42,557 bases of DNA, from positions 1 through 42,557 of IMG/VR virus record IMGVR_UViG_3300037193_000697; one strand, 5' to 3'. Source of the DNA: a virus. Position numbers and translations under genes: made by a program. Of the stretch, positions 1,501 through 36,381 are shown one piece after another (within the stretch, counting starts at the first letter, position 1; each line of letters begins with the position of its first letter). Under the pieces are notes generated by a model. The model was not told where the DNA came from and searched no databases. It saw nothing but the letters and a program-made list of their open reading frames with translations.

Positions 1501-2417
1501 CAGTAGACCCAAGCACTTGCCACCCCCGTCAAGGGCTGGTCGAGGTACGCGGTCCCGTCGTCGATCTTGTAGGCGGTGCCGTGGATGGCGTCGATGGCGG
1601 GGGTGAGGGTGGCGTGGAAGGGCAGCGCCCCGGTCGGCTGGAACTGGACCGACAGCACGCCGTTGCGGCCAGCGAGTTCGTCGGCCTCGAACAGCACGAA
1701 CGACCCGAGGCCGTCGGTGGTGAAGGACGCCTGCTTGTGGATCACCGTCACGGCGTGGCCGTTGTACGCCTCGACCAGTTCGAGCATCTGGCCGTTGATG
1801 TTCTCGACCCCGACGTTGGAGCGCACCGGAGCCCACGCCGTCCCGGTCCAGTAGTCGATGAGCCCCGGGTTGGTGGCGAGCATCGACAGGCTGTTCGTCA
1901 CCGGGGCAGGGGAGGCAGCAGCACGGGCGGCGGCGTCCGCGTACACCCGGACCAACTGCCGGATCGCGGTGTCGGTCAGGCCCAGACCAGCAGCAGTGGT
2001 CGACAGCATCCTCGCGGGGTCCTCGCGCACCTGCAGCGGCGCACCGACAGACCCGTCACCGTCGAGGGAGTCGTCGTGGGTGACCGCGCCCGTGGGGGCG
2101 GTGACCGGTGCCACCGGCTCCCAGCGGGAGGTGGCCGAGTTCCACGACAGCACCTCACCGTTGTCCGCACCCGTGGTGTTCACGTCGGGCAGGTCGTTGA
2201 TCGAGGCGGTCGCGGCGAACGCCACCGCGAGGGTCAGGGGGGAGGCCGACGTGCCGTCACCGGTGAGGGTGAGGTTGAAGGTCGAGTTGTCCGCCACCAC
2301 GAAGTCGAGTTCGCTGGAGATGACGAACGGGTCGGTGGGGGTTCCACTCCCGGTGACCTCGACGTTGGTGCCTGCCGCCAACTTGCAGGTGCAGGAACCG
2401 GAGCAGCACTTGGGCAT
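1500..2417 (-). CDS. minor tail protein, tail-tip/receptor-binding candidate
   Basis: A 305-residue protein. Residues 1-35 form a Cys-rich start (CCSGSCTC) followed by VEVTGSGTPTDPFVI, closely resembling the first 45 residues of the neighbouring glycine-rich protein, so the two probably share an attachment module. A second TGxGTxxxPLTL repeat follows near residues 45-65. The C-terminal half (about 200-305) is beta-rich and lacks known catalytic motifs. The start ATG has AGGAGG 4 nt upstream. By position and composition it is a distal tail protein that may contact the host. Confidence 0.75.
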   Translation of the reverse strand: MPKCCSGSCTCKLAAGTNVEVTGSGTPTDPFVISSELDFVVADNSTFNLTLTGDGTSASPLTLAVAFAATASINDLPDVNTTGADNGEVLSWNSATSRWEPVAPVTAPTGAVTHDDSLDGDGSVGAPLQVREDPARMLSTTAAGLGLTDTAIRQLVRVYADAAARAAASPAPVTNSLSMLATNPGLIDYWTGTAWAPVRSNVGVENINGQMLELVEAYNGHAVTVIHKQASFTTDGLGSFVLFEADELAGRNGVLSVQFQPTGALPFHATLTPAIDAIHGTAYKIDDGTAYLDQPLTGVASAWVY

Positions 2418-2425
2418 CAGTCCTC

Positions 2426-3463
2426 CTAGTATGAGATCACGACGACGACGCCGGGCGCTCCCGCTGCCCCGCTGCCGGAGTTGAAGCCGTTGACCGAGGC
2501 TCCGCCTCCACCGCCACCGCCGCCATAGTTGCCCCCAGCCGCGCCGTTGCCACCCGCAGCGGTGGTCGAGGCCGCGCCCCCACCACCACCTGATCCGGCG
2601 TAGCCCACGCCTGCGCTGCCGACGGCACCAGCCGCGCCCGCAGACGCACCGCCTGCGCCGCCCGCGACGTTCTGGACCGTGCTCTTGCCACCAGCCCCAC
2701 CGGAGCCGATCACGTTCCCTGTGGAAATCCCCCCACCGGCACCGCCACCACCAGCGCCAGCGACTCCGATCGCGCCGTCGATGGTGGAGGACTGCTCACC
2801 TGAGCCGCCCGCTGCCGTGCCCCCTGCGCCACCACTGCCGGACTTCACCGAGCCGTACCCAGCGAACCCCGCAGCCGCCGTGGTCGCGGTGCCTCCAGCG
2901 CCGCCCCTGCCGCCCGTGGCAAGGCCGTACGCGCCGAACGAGGAGTTGCCCCCTGCTACGCCTGCGCCGCCGTTGGTGTCGTTGGCCGTGGCCCCAGCGC
3001 CAGCGGTACCGGCAGCCCCCACCGTGACCGCCACCGACGCGGTGAGGGGGACCATCGAGAGGGTCAGTTCAGCGAACCCACCACCACCGCCTCCTGCGCC
3101 TCCGGTGCGAGCAGACGCCGAGGCACCCCTGCGGCCACCTCCTCCGCCGCCTCCGCCGCCGACCATGATGACCCGGGCAGCGGTCTTGCCAGCGGGCTTC
3201 GTCCACGTCCCGGAGGTGGTGAAGACTTCGAGCATCGCCTCGGACTCCGCCGAGGAGACCGCCGAGATGACGTAGGGATCGGACACCGTGCCGGTGCCGG
3301 TCATGGTCATCGCGACAGTTGACGTGTCCTCTACCGCGATCGAGGAGCCCGTCGTGCTGATCTCGTAGGGGTTGGTCTGACTCCCCGAGCCGGTGATCTG
3401 GACACCATCACCGGGCACGAGCACACAGGAGCACCTGTCGGACGCGCAACCACACCGTGCCAA
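2426..3463 (-). CDS. glycine-rich minor tail protein (tail-tip adhesin type)
   Basis: A 345-residue protein starting at TTG, chosen because AGGAG lies 6 nt upstream and the frame has no better start. Residues 1-90 hold the Cys-rich, TGSG-repeat module shared with the 305-residue neighbour. Residues 95-345 are a long glycine repeat region (GGGGGGGGG, GGAGG, GGRGG) ending GAPGVVVVISY. Such regions are known in phage tail-tip proteins, where they can pack as polyglycine-II helices exposing variable loops. The second TGTGTxxDPYVI repeat mirrors the neighbour. Its role is probably adsorption. Confidence 0.85.
   Translation of the reverse strand: MARCGCASDRCSCVLVPGDGVQITGSGSQTNPYEISTTGSSIAVEDTSTVAMTMTGTGTVSDPYVISAVSSAESEAMLEVFTTSGTWTKPAGKTAARVIMVGGGGGGGGGRRGASASARTGGAGGGGGGFAELTLSMVPLTASVAVTVGAAGTAGAGATANDTNGGAGVAGGNSSFGAYGLATGGRGGAGGTATTAAAGFAGYGSVKSGSGGAGGTAAGGSGEQSSTIDGAIGVAGAGGGGAGGGISTGNVIGSGGAGGKSTVQNVAGGAGGASAGAAGAVGSAGVGYAGSGGGGGAASTTAAGGNGAAGGNYGGGGGGGGASVNGFNSGSGAAGAPGVVVVISY
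2714..2727. repeat. dispersed palindrome copy 2 (GTTCC-CTGT-GGAAA)
   Basis: Spacer of 4 nt, inside the glycine-rich tail gene, where it encodes ISTGN and interrupts the GC-rich repeat DNA. Confidence 0.6.
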
Positions 3464-3536
3464 GACCCGCTCCTATCGCTCTGCGACCGTCGTCGCGGTT
3501 TCAGCGTACCTCTTGTAGACCATTGTGGACTGGACC

Positions 3537-5213
3537 TCACGTGACCCCGGAAGTGCGCCGGAGGAACTCGTAGGAGGCGACGTGCTTGTTGCCCGTTCCC
3601 CACGATGAAGCGAGTAGGCCGACGTGGGTGGGGGCGATGGTCTTCACGACAGTCAGCCCCTTGATCCACGACACCCCGTCCGGTGAGACATCCGCCCTCC
3701 ATGTGCTCGCGCCGAGGAAGACGAGGCGCGCGAAGATGCGGGCACCCGGAGGCGTGACGAGCGGAGCAGGTGGTGTGCCCTGCGCGTTCCAGCCCGTGAA
3801 GGGTCGCGCGTCGGTCCGCTGCTCACCGCTGCTGGTGATGTGGGTGAGCAGGAGGGCCTGATTCCCCGAGCCGTGCGTGATGCCGTCGGAGAGGATGATG
3901 CCGCCCATCGAATACATCGCCGCAGGTGGGCCGAGCAGGGTCACGCAGGTGATGAAGGCGTCCCCATTCACCATCGTCCCGACGCCGGACCTCACGATGC
4001 CGTGGATGTTGTTGGCGGTGTCGCCCCCCTCGTGCTGCAGCGAGAGGACATCCGCGCTCTCGGTCCACGTCACGTTCGCAGCGGGAGCACCTCCGCCGTC
4101 GACCCGCACCCACGCGGGGTCGAGCACTCCGTCGTTGAACTCGTCGATCGAGGTGGTTCCCGAAGGAACCGACCAGCGCCGGTCCCGCACCGGGGATGCC
4201 GCGCTACCCCCGCCACCTACGGAGGTCTCCGCCTCGTACTCGAACTGGACCCAGATGTTGTCGCTCGCTGCCCACGCGAACGGGACGGCGCTGGTAACCA
4301 GCCCATTCGCCGCTCCTGTTGCCAGCATCCCCACAGAGACCGAGTTCGACGACGGCGTGAAGGTTGTACCTGCGTAGTGAATGCCCGCGCTCGCGTCGGT
4401 GAGGAAGATCGCCCCGAGTGCTCGGTGGTTGGGCGGGTTGCCAGCACTCGCCGTTCGCTGGGGGAGGGGGAGGCTCACCAAGTAGGTTCCGGTGCCAGCG
4501 TTCACGCCCGAGGTCCCGAAGGTGATCCGCGCCCATCCCTTCACCGTCGACCCGTTGGCGGTGTACCGACCTGCCTGCACCGAGCCGGTGCCGAGCGTCG
4601 GGCTCACGCCTGTGGAGGTGAGGGTGGGGGTGTAGTCCTGCCAGACCTCTCCGCTGCTGCTACCCCCACTCCCACCGATGTTGATCGGCGAGGTGGTGCT
4701 CTCGAACACGTCGACCACCAGCGACCGCTCGGTGAGGGTGACGGCGGCGGTCGACTCCGAGGCGTTCCACCTGACCTCGACCGTGTGGGAGACACCGCTG
4801 GTCAGCGTGATGGGGATGCGGGAGAACACCGCGTCGTACATGGAGTTGGAGCCCGCGACGTTGCCAGTGATCTGAGGCGTGATGGCGGTGCCGTCGAGGT
4901 ACAACTCGACCCGGTTGGTGTGGCTACCAGTCCAGCCGAGGGTGGCGTCCACGAACCCCATCCGGCCCACCGTTGAAGAGGGGATGGTGATGGTCATCCC
5001 AGACACCAGCGTGGGAGAGACGGGCACGGTACCAGAGTTCACGTCGGCGGCGTCGCGGTACCAGTACCGCTGCCCGAACGGGGCACTCGCCCCACCCCCA
5101 CCGCCGCCCGTGTCCTCGACCAGTCCGGTCACCACGCCGTCGATGACATCGAGCGCGTACGCCCCGGTGGTGTGGCCGGTGGCGTCGATCTGATGGGGCT
5201 TCAAGCGGGTCAC
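3537..5213 (-). CDS. minor tail protein, multi-domain
   Basis: A 558-residue protein. The N-terminus (MTRLKPHQIDATG) is a motif frequent in tail-fibre proteins. A glycine linker (residues 36-42) is followed by beta-rich segments around 55-170 and 180-340, another linker (RRWSVPSGTT, about 342-352), then a jelly-roll-like domain at 355-550 resembling concanavalin-type or DUF1349-like folds. It starts with GTG, overlapping the upstream stop as GTGA, with AGAGG 7 nt upstream. The 73 nt between its stop and the next gene hold only a 16-codon ORF without a ribosome site. Probably part of the tail tip. Confidence 0.8.
   Translation of the reverse strand: MTRLKPHQIDATGHTTGAYALDVIDGVVTGLVEDTGGGGGGASAPFGQRYWYRDAADVNSGTVPVSPTLVSGMTITIPSSTVGRMGFVDATLGWTGSHTNRVELYLDGTAITPQITGNVAGSNSMYDAVFSRIPITLTSGVSHTVEVRWNASESTAAVTLTERSLVVDVFESTTSPINIGGSGGSSSGEVWQDYTPTLTSTGVSPTLGTGSVQAGRYTANGSTVKGWARITFGTSGVNAGTGTYLVSLPLPQRTASAGNPPNHRALGAIFLTDASAGIHYAGTTFTPSSNSVSVGMLATGAANGLVTSAVPFAWAASDNIWVQFEYEAETSVGGGGSAASPVRDRRWSVPSGTTSIDEFNDGVLDPAWVRVDGGGAPAANVTWTESADVLSLQHEGGDTANNIHGIVRSGVGTMVNGDAFITCVTLLGPPAAMYSMGGIILSDGITHGSGNQALLLTHITSSGEQRTDARPFTGWNAQGTPPAPLVTPPGARIFARLVFLGASTWRADVSPDGVSWIKGLTVVKTIAPTHVGLLASSWGTGNKHVASYEFLRRTSGVT
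4155..4170. repeat. dispersed palindrome copy 3 (GGTTCC-CGAA-GGAACC)
   Basis: Perfect 6-bp arms and a 4-nt spacer. It lies in the inter-domain linker (SVPSGTT) of the 558-residue tail protein. Confidence 0.75.
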
Positions 5214-32815: not shown

Positions 32816-33092
32816 TAGGGCGTGTCGGTCCATTTCTTGTCAGGACGATAATGCTAGGCTCGACCCAACAGGGTGTGCCCGCTACGCCCGCTCTGGCGAC
32901 GAGGTAGACGACCTCCGACAGAACCCGACAGGACCATGAGCCCCCGTGGAGGGGGTGCTGTCCAGATCGGTAGCCAGACGGATTCCCCGGGACCGGACCC
33001 GCGTCACAGACGCCACAAGGCGAAGCCTGCCCCCGCGCAGGGAGGTCGGTCAAACAGTCGTGAGACCAACAGCGAAGCGCCTACACGAATCG

Positions 33093-33108
33093 TGTAATAC
33101 AGTATCAC
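33093..33108 (+). promoter_or_regulatory. second TGTAATACA operator, near-palindrome
   Basis: TGTAATACAGT followed by ATCAC forms an imperfect palindrome GTAATAC-A-GTATCAC. It shares an 11-mer with the site at 32781 in opposite orientation, the arrangement expected of a repressor controlling both directions. Confidence 0.5.
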
Positions 33109-33210
33109 CTGCCAAATGGCACACACCTGCCTCACCGCATTGCACAACCTGCTGGTAGGACCTGAGGGGACTGGGGGTGGGGTGGGGTCCTGTGGGGCCC
33201 TCAGATCGGC

Positions 33211-33224
33211 GTTCCCGATGGAAC
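33211..33224. repeat. dispersed palindrome copy 14 (GTTCC-CGAT-GGAAC)
   Basis: Perfect 5-bp arms and a 4-nt spacer, in the divergent region about 40 nt before the candidate rightward promoter. Confidence 0.75.
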
Positions 33225-33261
33225 GGACTCACTATGCCGACATGCCGCACCTAGACACATG

Positions 33262-33291
33262 TTGCGCACTGGACTAAGCGGATGTTCTACT
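33262..33291 (+). promoter_or_regulatory. candidate rightward promoter ahead of the boxA leader
   Basis: TTGCGC (33262-33267), 18-nt spacer, TCTACT (33286-33291). Transcription would start near 33298, just before the boxB-like hairpin and boxA-like element. Moderate match only. Confidence 0.45.
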
Positions 33292-33305
33292 AGTTGTGTT
33301 GCATC

Positions 33306-33331
33306 GATGGGCCGGAGGGTTCGGGCCCATC
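33306..33331 (+). promoter_or_regulatory. leader hairpin, boxB-like position
   Basis: GATGGGCC and GGCCCATC form a perfect 8-bp stem with a 10-nt loop, 16 nt upstream of the boxA-like sequence. A second small hairpin (TGCCA-AC-TGGCA) follows. rRNA antitermination leaders have hairpins in this place. Confidence 0.55.
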
Positions 33332-33347
33332 GGTTGCCAACTGGCAG

Positions 33348-33371
33348 TTTGAGAACTCAACAGTGTGTGTG
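33348..33371 (+). promoter_or_regulatory. rRNA-leader-type boxA antitermination element
   Basis: TTTGAGAACTCAACAGTGTG followed by TGTG. This is nearly the conserved boxA and flank of actinobacterial rRNA operon leaders, where NusB/NusE and other Nus factors bind to make RNA polymerase read through terminators. Here it stands in the untranslated leader of the first rightward gene, ahead of several strong terminators. Positions 33356-33371 are repeated inverted at 34298-34313. Confidence 0.7.
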
Positions 33372-33458
33372 TCCCTTGTGTGTCTGTCGCGTGCCGTGCC
33401 TCCCCCGTTGTGGGGGTGGCTCGGTGCTCGTCAGATACGGGTATCGGTCGAAACTATG

Positions 33459-33476
33459 GGCCCCGTGATTGGGGCC
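33459..33476 (+). promoter_or_regulatory. GGCCCC hairpin just before the first rightward gene
   Basis: GGCCCC-GTGATT-GGGGCC, perfect 6-bp stem, ending 16 nt before the ATG at 33493. No T-tract. It may be a weak attenuator or protect the 5' end of the coding part. Confidence 0.45.
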
Positions 33477-33492
33477 GGATTGTGAGTCTGTG

Positions 33493-34284
33493 ATGGCCGA
33501 GAACAAGAACAAGGGCAAGGGCAAGTCCACCGAGGTAGCCGAGGTGCCTTCGCTCCCTGTCATGTCCCTGTCGGACATGGCGACCGATGAGCGGTGGGGT
33601 GTCGCGGCATGGTCGGACAAGCGTCCTGCCGCTGACATCCGGGCGGTGGGGCAGGTCGCCTCCCGTATGGACGGGGTGCTGGAGTACGTCCGGGGCATCG
33701 CCACGTTCAACGCGGTGCGGTTCGGGCACATCGGCAAGAACGCGGAGTTCACTAAGCGGGCGGACCTTATGGTTGCCCTCGGGCTGTCGTCCCCGGGGCA
33801 GGTGACCCGGGCCGAGGACCTCGGTCGTGCCGCGATCGTTCACAAGGTCGTGCCCGGCACGGACCGGTGGACGCGAGTCGCAAAGGCTGTCCGTGCGTCC
33901 GGGACTGCCGCCAGTGCTGTGAAGGAGGCGCTGCGGCAGGACAAGCGCGTGACGTTCGCCACGCTGGACGGTCTGCTGGACGCGCTGGACAAGTCTGTCA
34001 GCGCGTCGGGGGAGTCGACCAATTCCCCCGAACAGGACTCGGGCACGGCGGGACGGGGCGGAGATGACCCCGTGGCCGAGGTGACGGCCGAGAGGCTGTC
34101 CACCGCGACTCCTGCGGCGCGGCTCAAGATGGCAGCGGAGTGCATCAAGACGCTGTCCGAGGTCGTGGCCACGATGGACGGCGACCGCGCGGGACTGGAG
34201 TCCGTGCTTGAGCGGCTGAACGTCCTGTCCGCCGACGTGCAGGCCCGACTCTCCGGCGAAGAGTCGGAGTCCGGGGCAGCCTGA
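33493..34284 (+). CDS. first rightward gene, function unknown
   Basis: A 263-residue protein starting MAENKNKGKGKSTEVAEV. Residues 30-165 look folded and mostly helical (VRGIATFNAVRFGHIGKNAE, MVALGLSSPGQVTRAEDLGR, TRVAKAVRASGTAASAVKEA); 170-192 are Ser/Gly-rich linker; 193-250 form a helical coil (MAAECIKTLSEVVATMDGDR) that may oligomerise. The ATG lacks a good ribosome site. It stands alone between an rRNA-type leader and two terminators and is enclosed by a 16-bp inverted repeat, so it is probably highly expressed and specially regulated. No family is recognised. Confidence 0.82.
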   Translation: MAENKNKGKGKSTEVAEVPSLPVMSLSDMATDERWGVAAWSDKRPAADIRAVGQVASRMDGVLEYVRGIATFNAVRFGHIGKNAEFTKRADLMVALGLSSPGQVTRAEDLGRAAIVHKVVPGTDRWTRVAKAVRASGTAASAVKEALRQDKRVTFATLDGLLDALDKSVSASGESTNSPEQDSGTAGRGGDDPVAEVTAERLSTATPAARLKMAAECIKTLSEVVATMDGDRAGLESVLERLNVLSADVQARLSGEESESGAA

Positions 34285-34297
34285 CAGGCACCGAGGG

Positions 34298-34313
34298 CAC
34301 ACACACTGTTGAG
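34298..34313 (-). repeat. inverted copy of the boxA flank
   Basis: CACACACACTGTTGAG is the exact reverse complement of 33356-33371, and the AGGG beside it continues the match after a one-base gap. It lies 13 nt after the stop codon of the first rightward gene and just before its terminator. The two arms could pair in the mRNA and close a 926-nt loop. Confidence 0.7.
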
Positions 34314-34316
34314 ACC

Positions 34317-34346
34317 GGGCCCCGCTGGCACCCGCCAGCGGGGCCC
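34317..34346 (+). terminator. strong hairpin terminator 1
   Basis: Perfect 13-bp stem GGGCCCCGCTGGC/GCCAGCGGGGCCC with a 4-nt loop, after the first rightward gene. No long T-tract, as is usual in GC-rich actinobacterial hairpin terminators. Confidence 0.8.
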
Positions 34347-34351
34347 TACCC

Positions 34352-34387
34352 ATGCCCCCGTTACCGCCACGCGCGGGACGGGGGCAT
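34352..34387 (+). terminator. hairpin terminator 2
   Basis: Perfect 10-bp stem ATGCCCCCGT/ACGGGGGCAT with an inner CCGC/GCGG helix. It follows terminator 1 after 5 nt, making a tandem stop. Confidence 0.7.
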
Positions 34388-34391
34388 CGCC

Positions 34392-34407
34392 GTTCCCGGA
34401 TGGAAAC
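34392..34407. repeat. dispersed palindrome copy 15 (GTTCC-CGGAT-GGAAAC)
   Basis: Spacer of 5 nt, intergenic, 4 nt after the second terminator. Confidence 0.65.
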
Positions 34408-34530
34408 TCCCCCACCGGACTCCCACTCCCCCCGGGCGCGCGGTGCGCGTAGCGGGGGCCGATCAACGAGCGCGTCAACGACGAGGAGGTCAACCATCCA
34501 ACCTGCCGCACCTAAGTCATGTAACCAAGT

Positions 34531-34559
34531 AGACAAAGGTGGCGAAGTAGGGTATACTT
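34531..34559 (+). promoter_or_regulatory. strong sigma-70/SigA-type promoter
   Basis: TAGACA (34531-34536), exact 17-nt spacer, TATACT (34554-34559). This is the best promoter match in the window. Transcription should begin near 34566 and serve the genes from 34641 to the terminator at 35206. Confidence 0.75.
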
Positions 34560-34592
34560 GTAGTTGAAGGTGAAGTTATGCCCTCAATCAGT

Positions 34593-34624
34593 CGGACCCG
34601 TCGGGGTCCGGTTCCCTCGGGAAC
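34593..34624 (+). promoter_or_regulatory. two adjacent leader hairpins; second is dispersed palindrome copy 16
   Basis: CGGACCC-GTCG-GGGTCCG (34593-34610) is followed at once by GTTCC-CTCG-GGAAC (34611-34624). Both lie in the untranslated leader, 17 nt before the first ATG. They may control ribosome access or mRNA stability. Confidence 0.65.
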
Positions 34625-34628
34625 AACT

Positions 34629-34653
34629 ACAGAGAGAGAGATGAGAGAGATGA
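34629..34653 (+). repeat. 25-bp leader/start repeat, copy A
   Basis: Exactly identical to 35561-35585. It starts ACAGAGAGAGAG and contains two in-frame ATGs (34641 and 34650), so it provides a GAGAG-rich ribosome site and the first four codons (MREM). The palindrome copy 16 lies 5 nt upstream. Confidence 0.8.
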
Positions 34654-34940
34654 CCCAAACGATCAATGCACGGCTCACTCCGTGGGCCACGCAACGGATC
34701 AGCAAGCGGTACTGCGACGGTGGCAAGGTCACCAAGCAGGCGCTGCGCCAGTCACTCCGGGACTACCCCAAGACGGAGTTCTGGACGATGGGCAACTTCG
34801 ACATGCGGGACGGGGCCTGCTTCACCACGGCGGAGGTCGCCCCCGCGTCCATCGAAGTGCGGACCATCGACAACGAGGGGCGCAACGACCTGCTCGCCAT
34901 CGTCGAGGTCCACCCGTCCGGTGCGGTGGTCGTCCGATGA
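34641..34940 (+). CDS. 99-residue protein, unknown
   Basis: Starts MREMTQTINARLTPWATQRI inside the 25-bp repeat. A basic N-terminal half (KRYCDGGKVTKQALRQSLRD) is followed by beta-strands (AEVAPASIEVRTIDNEGRND) and a hydrophobic end. Start choice: the first ATG of the repeat, as at 35573; the second ATG at 34650 or a distant ATG at 34578 (inside the leader hairpin region) is less likely. It overlaps the next gene by ATGA. No family is recognised. Confidence 0.75.
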   Translation: MREMTQTINARLTPWATQRISKRYCDGGKVTKQALRQSLRDYPKTEFWTMGNFDMRDGACFTTAEVAPASIEVRTIDNEGRNDLLAIVEVHPSGAVVVR

Positions 34941-35188
34941 ACGGGCTGTCCGCCACGTCGATCGTCGGGTCCACCAACCCGCCGTTCGGCACCGGTCCCC
35001 TCCCCTCCCCGCAGTACGGCCCCGCGTGGGTCGCCGACTGCTACGGGATCACGGTCGACACCATGAACGCCGACCTCGTGGTCCGGGGCATCGACACCGC
35101 CGACCTCACCGACGACGAGGTAGCCCGTGCGTGGGCACCGGAGACGGGGGTGACGGTCGTGGACCTGCTCGACACCGGGGCGGTCTGA
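34937..35188 (+). CDS. 83-residue protein, unknown
   Basis: Starts MNGLSATSIVGSTNPPFGTG by ATGA overlap. The C-terminal half (ADCYGITVDTMNADLVVRGI, LTDDEVARAWAPETGVTVVD) looks like a small alpha/beta domain with an acidic surface. It closes the first cassette after the strong promoter and is followed 17 nt later by a terminator. No family is recognised. Confidence 0.72.
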   Translation: MNGLSATSIVGSTNPPFGTGPLPSPQYGPAWVADCYGITVDTMNADLVVRGIDTADLTDDEVARAWAPETGVTVVDLLDTGAV

Positions 35189-35205
35189 ACCGGAGCCAAC
35201 GGACG

Positions 35206-35243
35206 GGACACGGCCCCCTTCATGCAGGGAGGGGGCCGTGTCC
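35206..35243 (+). terminator. strong hairpin terminator after the first cassette
   Basis: Perfect 13-bp stem GGACACGGCCCCC/GGGGGCCGTGTCC with a 12-nt loop. Confidence 0.8.
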
Positions 35244-35297
35244 TGTGCCCGGGCCAACCGGCTCAGCCAACTCGGGATGGAGAGAGGGGTGACGACC

Positions 35298-35576
35298 GTG
35301 CGGGAGTGGATGCCCGACGCTTCGGTGAGGCGTGGGGACAACAACCCGGAAGTGCGGGAGTTCTATTCGTGGTGCCGACGGGCGAAGCGGGTAGCCGATG
35401 GACTCGGCTTCCAATCGCCGTGTGGGGACCACGAGTACCAAGTGATGCTGTCGTTCTACGACGCAGGGCAGCCGCCGTTGGCGGCGATCCTCCTGCTCGA
35501 CGAGTGGCGGCAGGCTCAACGCCGGGCGGAGGCCCGGGTCAACCGTTCCACAAGGAACGAACAGAGAGAGAGATGA
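35298..35576 (+). CDS. basic helical protein, unknown
   Basis: A 92-residue protein. The GTG at 35298 has GAGAGGGG 8 nt upstream; the ATG at 35277 and GTG at 35289 are alternatives. It contains FYSWCRRAKRVADGLGFQSP, DAGQPPLAAILLLDEWRQAQ and an Arg-rich C-terminus. Its last codons run through palindrome copy 17 and the second 25-bp repeat, and its stop overlaps the next ATG. It starts soon after a terminator, so it needs readthrough or an unseen promoter. No family is recognised. Confidence 0.68.
   Translation: MREWMPDASVRRGDNNPEVREFYSWCRRAKRVADGLGFQSPCGDHEYQVMLSFYDAGQPPLAAILLLDEWRQAQRRAEARVNRSTRNEQRER
35544..35559. repeat. dispersed palindrome copy 17 (CGTTCC-ACAA-GGAACG)
   Basis: Perfect 6-bp arms and a 4-nt spacer, at the 3' end of one gene and 13 nt before the next start codon. 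Confidence 0.8.
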
Positions 35577-35585
35577 GAGAGATGA
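35561..35585 (+). repeat. 25-bp leader/start repeat, copy B
   Basis: Identical to 34629-34653 over 25 bases and again preceded by the dispersed palindrome. It supplies the start of the 62-residue gene (MREM) and the stop of the previous one. Confidence 0.8.
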
Positions 35586-35761
35586 TCGAGAGAGAGATTC
35601 ACACCTGTCAGGTGGTGGACTGCACCCACAAGGCGGTCCGCACCCACCCGTTCCTCGCTGACGTGAAGGTGTGCGGCACCTGCTACGTCGAGGCGGTGGG
35701 CGGAGCGGTGACGGTCGAGACCGTCATCCACATCGACCCGTCGATGGAGTTGCTGTCATGA
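35573..35761 (+). CDS. small zinc-ribbon-like protein
   Basis: A 62-residue protein starting MREMIEREIHTCQVVDCTHK, with C-x4-C (CQVVDC) and C-x2-C (VCGTC) pairs about 17 residues apart, a typical short zinc ribbon. Its first four codons come from the 25-bp repeat. It overlaps the next gene by ATGA. It may bind nucleic acid; the family is not recognised. Confidence 0.75.
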   Translation: MREMIEREIHTCQVVDCTHKAVRTHPFLADVKVCGTCYVEAVGGAVTVETVIHIDPSMELLS

Positions 35762-36048
35762 GCGGGCTGCCGGGCCGTGGCACGGTCCAGTCCATCGTGT
35801 TCGCCACGCTCAACAGCACCTACTTCTTCGAGTGGGTCACCGGCGAGCGGTACGGCATCCTCACCGGCGTCACCGGGACGTTCGAGGGGCGCAAGTTCCC
35901 GGTGGAAACCGAGTCGATCCGCGACCTCGTGTACCCCGGGGAGATGCCGGTGCTCGACGTGCTCAACGTCGAGGGTGGGCCGGACACGATCTACCTGACG
36001 AGGGTCACCAACTCCCTGCGCAAGACGTGGGATGGGCTGTCGTCATGA
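35758..36048 (+). CDS. 96-residue beta-rich protein, unknown
   Basis: Starts MSGLPGRGTVQSIVFATLNS, then FFEWVTGERYGILTGVTGTF and a mixed C-terminal part (VEGGPDTIYLTRVTNSLRKT). The pattern suggests a small beta-barrel. It is coupled on both sides by ATGA overlaps, so it is translated together with the zinc-ribbon and secreted-type proteins. No family is recognised. Confidence 0.72.
   Translation: MSGLPGRGTVQSIVFATLNSTYFFEWVTGERYGILTGVTGTFEGRKFPVETESIRDLVYPGEMPVLDVLNVEGGPDTIYLTRVTNSLRKTWDGLSS
35895..35909. repeat. dispersed palindrome copy 18 (GTTCC-CGGT-GGAAAC)
   Basis: Spacer of 4 nt, inside the 96-residue gene (encodes KFPVET). Confidence 0.65.
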
Positions 36049-36314
36049 GGGGCGCGCTGGTGGCGGCGCTCATCGTGGCGCTCGCATGGTGGCTGTCCCC
36101 CTCCCGGGGCACCGACGAGATCGTCGACCATGACGTGATCCGGGTCGAGGTTCCTGAGGAACCGTGCGCCAACGAGGACGGGCCGGGTCCCTGCTACTGG
36201 GATGCCACGACCCGGGGCAACGGGTACGGGCTGTCCTACTGGATCGACGAGCGGGGCAACTACCTCTACGACGATGGCCGGGTCGTAGAACCCGATGAGA
36301 ACAACAACGGGTAG
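36045..36314 (+). CDS. membrane-anchored or secreted small protein
   Basis: An 89-residue protein with an N-terminal hydrophobic segment (MRGALVAALIVALAWWLSPS) that acts as signal peptide or anchor, then an acidic domain with two Cys (EEPCANEDGPGPCYWDATTR) likely to form a disulfide and a Tyr-rich YGLSYWIDERGNYLYDDGR. The domain would face outside the membrane. A role such as superinfection exclusion is possible but not shown. It ends at a strong terminator. Confidence 0.78.
   Translation: MRGALVAALIVALAWWLSPSRGTDEIVDHDVIRVEVPEEPCANEDGPGPCYWDATTRGNGYGLSYWIDERGNYLYDDGRVVEPDENNNG
36149..36163. repeat. dispersed palindrome copy 19 (GGTTCC-TGA-GGAACC)
   Basis: Perfect 6-bp arms and a 3-nt spacer, in the linker of the secreted-type protein (encodes VPEEP). 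Confidence 0.75.
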
Positions 36315-36381
36315 CCCAGCACACTCCCGCCGACACCGCCTTACCCACATGGGGCGGTGTCGTGCGGAGTGTCCCGCTGGG
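36315..36381 (+). terminator. long nested hairpin terminator
   Basis: CCCAGC/GCTGGG encloses ACACTCC/GGAGTGT and CGACACCGCC/GGCGGTGTCG, a nearly continuous stem of over 20 bp that begins on the base after a stop codon. The gene-free 36382-36539 that follows has no clear promoter. Confidence 0.8.

Follow-up and report, generated by a model that had tools for sequence, protein, structure and literature searches.

The first rightward gene of a 42,557-base virus record (67% GC), analysed at its full length and hereafter the window, is preceded by an exact copy of an actinobacterial rRNA leader signal and followed by a trailer predicted to pair with it. From sequence and predicted folding, we think it likely that the unit running from candidate promoter P1 through boxA/boxC, gene 33493–34284, trailer and hairpin encodes a phage mRNA built like pre-16S rRNA. 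Such a message would probably borrow the cellular rRNA transcription machinery. The terminase, portal and tape-measure genes of the window are read leftward, and small genes are read rightward from 33493. The features discussed below are:

33237–33294, plus strand: candidate promoter region P1, with upstream box CCGACATGCCGCACCTA at 33237–33253 (box repeat; weak -35/-10)
33305–33332, plus strand: strong hairpin at the boxB position (inverted-repeat listing and fold)
33348–33371, plus strand: rrn-type boxA TTTGAGAACTCAACA running into boxC-like CAGTGTGTGTG (exact 20-mer match to actinobacterial 16S leaders)
33356–33395, plus strand: leader (5') strand of the helix, with 37 predicted pairs to 34275–34313 (-65.0 kcal/mol)
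33493–34284, plus strand: first rightward gene (gene 1), an ORF of 263 aa with a weak, sub-threshold hit to the phage CII-type family PF06892
34275–34313, plus strand: trailer (3' strand of the helix), in which 34295–34313 is an inverted copy of CTCAACAGTGTGTGTGTCC (inverted repeat and pairing prediction)
34317–34346, plus strand: terminator-like hairpin with a 13-bp perfect stem, a 4-nt loop and no T run (inverted-repeat listing)
34352–34387, plus strand: second GC-rich hairpin, ATGCCCCCGT ... ACGGGGGCAT (read from the sequence)
34530–34558, plus strand: predicted promoter P2 of the following genes, TAGACA-17-TATACT, 10/12 (promoter scan)

A host-type boxA in the leader of gene 1

The 20-mer TTTGAGAACTCAACAGTGTG occurs once in the window, as an exact match at 33348–33367 on the plus strand, with no other site at up to three mismatches and a chance expectation of 0 (100 shuffles). 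It is identical at every letter to the boxA-boxC of actinobacterial 16S rRNA leaders. The preliminary description had claimed a near match to the conserved actinobacterial boxA in front of the first rightward gene; compared with actinobacterial rrn leaders, the 20-mer matches exactly, and the orientation is correct. The site is non-coding and lies about 130 nt 5' of the ATG at 33493, in a candidate transcribed leader. Searching one genome per species recovered the 20-mer in at least 119 contigs, with titles almost all actinobacterial and one labelled Acidobacteriaceae. Among the matches listed, 63 of 120 sites are followed within 600 nt by a 16S 5' end, 55 lie at contig ends (<300 nt left) and two were not placeable. 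A relaxed boxA motif was found in 48 of 60 actinobacterial genomes, at about 80 sites, against one for the backwards control. Given the sites near 16S and the 60-genome scan, we therefore identify the 20-mer as boxA plus the start of boxC from an actinobacterial 16S leader.

Two neighbouring elements from the earlier description held up in part. A boxB-like hairpin had been placed before boxA; the strong hairpin at 33305–33332 is there, but upstream hairpins are not conserved in phage boxA leaders (mean z -0.6 upstream, -1.2 downstream), and boxB as a conserved element of these leaders is not supported. For rrn antitermination, boxA alone suffices (PMC10250234). A candidate promoter had been proposed at 33262; the P1 region is present, but its -35/-10 elements (TTGCGC ... 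TTCTAC or TACTAG) are weak and absent from the output of the sigma-70 scan. The P1 upstream box is repeated (88%) at 34498–34514 before P2, and CCnACnTGCCGCACCTA, standing at 33237–33253 and 34498–34514 before both rightward promoter candidates, is probably a regulatory or promoter element common to the two. A purine repeat, AGAGAGAGATGAGAGAGATGA, precedes two small rightward genes (34634–34660 and 35566–35590) and is perhaps an extended ribosome-binding region.

We found no DNA relatives of 33000–34000 in annotated phages and no relatives of gene 33493–34284 in the viral contigs searched. A search for the host by terminase gave remote matches only (12 of 394 genomes, best 48% identity). The phage-specific CTCAACAGTGTGTGTG occurs in one of 296 actinobacterial genomes, and in no other viral contig does it occur twice.

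A trailer that pairs with the leader

The segment 34295–34313, overlooked in the preliminary description, is an inverted near-copy of 33356–33374, complementary over 19 nt with a single G-U. Because it begins at position 9 of the 20-mer and has no TTTGAGAA, it is no second boxA. We also considered a boxA acting leftward from the inverted copy and rejected it: TTTGAGAA is missing, no leftward promoter was returned nearby, and the transcript would be antisense to gene 1. The end of gene 1, including its final codons and stop codon (34282–34284), overlaps the trailer, and the hairpin at 34317–34346 begins 3 nt past the trailer. The full pairing of leader and trailer is the best among 3558 places within 9 kb on each side (runner-up -48.7 kcal/mol), and its 37 pairs are interrupted by small bulges on one side. 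In the folded unit, 16 core pairs have a probability near 1. The helix is partly a GT repeat, and comparison with shuffled GC-rich trailer DNA gives it a z of only -1.7.

Host rrn operons provide a template for this arrangement. In all 18 host operons having enough sequence, the 16S trailer, 96–250 nt past 16S, pairs over 15–21 nt with the leader boxA, beginning at boxA position 7 or 8; the paired stretch reads ...CACACTGTTGGGT... in the host and ...CACACTGTTGAGA... in the window. A second host boxA, TTTGAGAACTGCACAGTGGA, lies 37–40 nt 5' of 23S, and this spacer copy pairs over 17–25 nt with the trailer that follows 23S in each of four operons, so both actinobacterial boxA copies belong to leader-trailer helices. 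In E. coli, boxC, about 18 nt past boxA, is in the helix and boxA itself is outside it (PMC10250234). The host rrn loci (L007–L125, L521–L524) thus differ from E. coli in holding boxA inside both the 16S and the 23S helices. Burial of the first boxA in the 16S helix suggests a possible explanation for the second boxA before 23S.

With a leader predicted to pair with a trailer right after the enclosed sequence, the window has the architecture of pre-rRNA. The enclosed sequence is not rRNA: it is a 263-aa ORF, and no Rfam family matched in the window. The window trailer is complementary to the part of boxA that is paired by the 16S trailer, and gene 1 therefore occupies the place of 16S.

boxA sites and bracketed genes in other actinophages

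A BLAST query with boxA returned 144 phage records, 142 of them from actinobacterial hosts, against none of 57 for a reversed-letter control query. In 15-mer scans of viral contigs, where we compared shares rather than totals among the matches listed, 23 of 118 loci had GC >0.60; with the motif reversed, 1 of 120 did. Sites were found in mycobacteriophages and in Streptomyces, Gordonia, Nocardia and Rhodococcus phages; mycobacteriophages carry an AATAG or AAATAG form and most others AACAG. The motif is non-coding and in the sense orientation in Immanuel3, Bantam, Nocardia P3.1, Bongo, MrMagoo, Scherzo, Adzzy, Superchunk, BRock, Lika, RGL3, Gilson, Manuel, FlowerPower and Endor1. The exceptions are Coruscant, where the site is inside an annotated gene, and GuyFagieri, where it touches a gene start. 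Among isolates, boxA mostly lies 80–500 nt ahead of the first gene of an early-type operon of small genes; some of these operons include anti-restriction genes. Whole phage records, picked for having a site, hold one or two boxA sites each and none of the backwards control. The literature searched, which mostly did not reach subscription papers, held no description of an rrn-type boxA in actinophages.

Several loci have further structure around boxA. A conserved stretch (CTGGTGAACGTTACTGCCGGTCATAACGGTGGGACGGGACAGCATC...) stands directly before boxA at L005 (reverse strand, 2380–2470), L006, L130 and L135 and may itself be a structured RNA. In L126 and L139, a long stem (GCATACGAAC...GTTCGTATGC) comes after boxA, and hairpin units that are almost identical (GGCCACCTTCGGGTGGCC ... 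GGCACTACAGCC) stand between the small genes. Two adjacent window genes at 38687–40007 have ...ALRSG..Q..G.L...YCCLGV... in common with an early gene of these two boxA phages. Perfect hairpins are many in Immanuel3, FlowerPower and G403, and none above chance occur in cluster A mycobacteriophages and Lika; a tie of boxA to terminator-rich operons is not general across the phages tested.

Two distant terminase relatives of the window (L175 and L215) carry boxA variants before the first early gene, divergent from terminase. The L175 boxA is of the spacer (pre-23S) type, and that of L215 reads TTGAGAACTTCATAGTG. In L175 the trailer lies 15 nt past the stop codon, its pairing is the best of 1997 places (-71.4 kcal/mol, z -8), and a hairpin follows directly. 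A separate shuffle comparison gave -76.7 for this helix against a shuffled mean of -43.8, and the chance of the 11-nt core alone in that gap is 0.001. The letters of L175 and the window differ past a common ACAGTG, so it is the pairing, not the sequence, that the two have in common. Streptomyces phage BRock (112-kb genome) is a third bracketed case, weaker than the window and L175, with its best partner of 963 places at stop+22 (z -6.7 against shuffles).

L215 has a boxA-like site but the trailer is absent, and the nearer terminase relatives L144, L145 and L150 have neither boxA nor trailer, so the trait comes and goes. Gene 1 gave no significant BLAST match to the first early genes of L150 and L175, though the layout is alike. 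No trailer was found after the gene in the other annotated isolates tested, and a bracket round gene 1 is limited to 3 of about 66 phage boxA loci. Among 48 further loci, only L262 pairs strongly, 404 nt downstream. We tried an anti-boxA as a rule for all boxA phages and rejected it; most loci are without a trailer. Judged by their sequences, putative rRNA-type signals are common in actinobacterial viruses, and the complete rRNA-like bracket is rare.

At L262, L317 and L334 (weakly at L332), the boxA flank pairs 150–430 nt downstream, before the first gene, and what is bracketed there may be a non-coding leader RNA rather than a gene. L150, a close relative without boxA, has stoperator-like TTTAGTGACTAAAC palindromes between early genes (1590–4330), and L215 has TGTCCAAGCTTGGACA at similar places.

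Proposed mechanism, alternatives and known systems

The preliminary description had suggested that host Nus factors could be recruited without a phage N or Q protein. We regard this as the natural reading, because an rrn boxA sits in the sense leader here and likewise in unrelated actinophages. In E. coli, boxA recruits NusB-S10, with NusA, NusG and SuhB, and a proposed model has boxC held at the RNA exit until the trailer emerges (PMC10250234). By analogy, NusB-NusE(S10) together with NusA, NusG and SuhB would bind the phage boxA as it emerges from polymerase. The Nus complex would keep the leader tethered at the RNA exit and would make polymerase resistant to Rho and pausing as it transcribes the untranslated leader and gene 1. 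The emerging trailer would then zip onto boxA/boxC; since it covers boxA itself, it should displace and release the Nus factors, a step that we infer, E. coli boxA being outside the helix. Polymerase would stop at the hairpin 3 nt later, and the closed helix could keep both mRNA ends together, either protecting them or offering RNase III a cleavage site, as happens in rRNA. The genes beyond would start at their own promoter, P2. More broadly, we give an even chance to the proposal that some actinophages wrap early mRNA as counterfeit pre-rRNA, in which boxA loads the complex and the trailer helix releases it and seals the ends, with the template differing between phages (pre-16S for the window, pre-23S for L175).

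The Nus complex might instead be only an RNA-folding aid, with boxA holding the leader until the trailer appears and the mRNA ends pairing for stability or processing while termination is unaffected. Folding is now held to be the main role of E. coli Nus factors on rRNA (PMC5725501, PMC10250234), and no other extra feature is as well conserved as the helix. Most phage boxA leaders are without a trailer, however, so boxA needs another use there, and we consider this reading possible but unlikely.

Plain rrn-type antitermination, in which polymerase would read through the hairpins from 34317 to 36315 to serve the whole right arm and the inverted copy would be incidental, seems to us distinctly doubtful. 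The boxA is real, most actinophage boxA leaders stand without a trailer ahead of long operons, and N- and rrn-type complexes do resist termination (PMC10250234). Against this, a 37-pair trailer is placed precisely between the gene and the hairpin, L175 has a re-invented equivalent, and boxA is generally not coupled to hairpin-studded operons. The preliminary description had invoked boxA to explain expression past terminators at 34317, 34352, 35206 and 36315, and this is not supported: P2 lies beyond the hairpins at 34317 and 34352, and the boxA-pairing trailer is just before them. P2 has the same upstream box as P1, and thus a link from boxA to terminators further right is unneeded and less likely. 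The two elements at 34317 and 34352 that had been called strong terminators do form GC-rich hairpins but have no T run, and the terminator scan omits them for that reason. The trailer probably ends the boxA effect.

A 19-nt inverted repeat on both sides of one gene could also mark sites for a phage regulator, or the ends of an invertible or mobile segment, with the rrn likeness secondary. We consider this very improbable: the 20-mer is exactly the rrn boxA, the 37 pairs bulge on one side as RNA would, and L175 has the same layout in different letters. Family searches found no recombinase in the gene 1 product, and the mobile or invertible segment was rejected on this and on the L175 layout. 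Repression of gene 33493, by pairing or Nus binding near its ribosome-binding site, has a precedent in E. coli suhB, whose boxA represses by occluding the ribosome site (PMC5725501), but is extremely improbable here, with boxA about 130 nt before the start codon and too far for direct occlusion.

The boxA sites point to a widespread phage route to the host rRNA transcription complex without an N- or Q-type protein, in the actinophages, a large and well-collected group. The bracketed cases would be a natural test of the leader-trailer helix, as a boxA-boxC-trailer module with no ribosome to assemble, in which transcription, release and RNA end protection could be measured separately from ribosome biogenesis.

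The phage unit shares with actinobacterial rrn leaders and spacers the same boxA-boxC 20-mer and the pairing of the same part of boxA with a trailer past the enclosed sequence; it differs in having a protein gene in place of rRNA, a phage-specific outer helix and an immediate hairpin. As in lambda nut/N, boxA lies in an early leader and is expected to recruit host Nus factors, whereas the phage boxA is rrn-type, a trailer is present, and a boxB-N pair was not identified: the N-type family gave no hit among the tested proteins, although N-like proteins are not recognisable by sequence alone and the hairpin at 33305–33332 is present. HK022 put RNA resembles the phage unit as an RNA-only route to modified polymerase. 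It acts through its own structure and is not known to use boxA, whereas the phage motif is the host boxA. E. coli suhB is, like the phage, a case of boxA outside rRNA (PMC5725501), but the suhB boxA represses translation of a host gene and has no trailer, whereas the phage unit has one.
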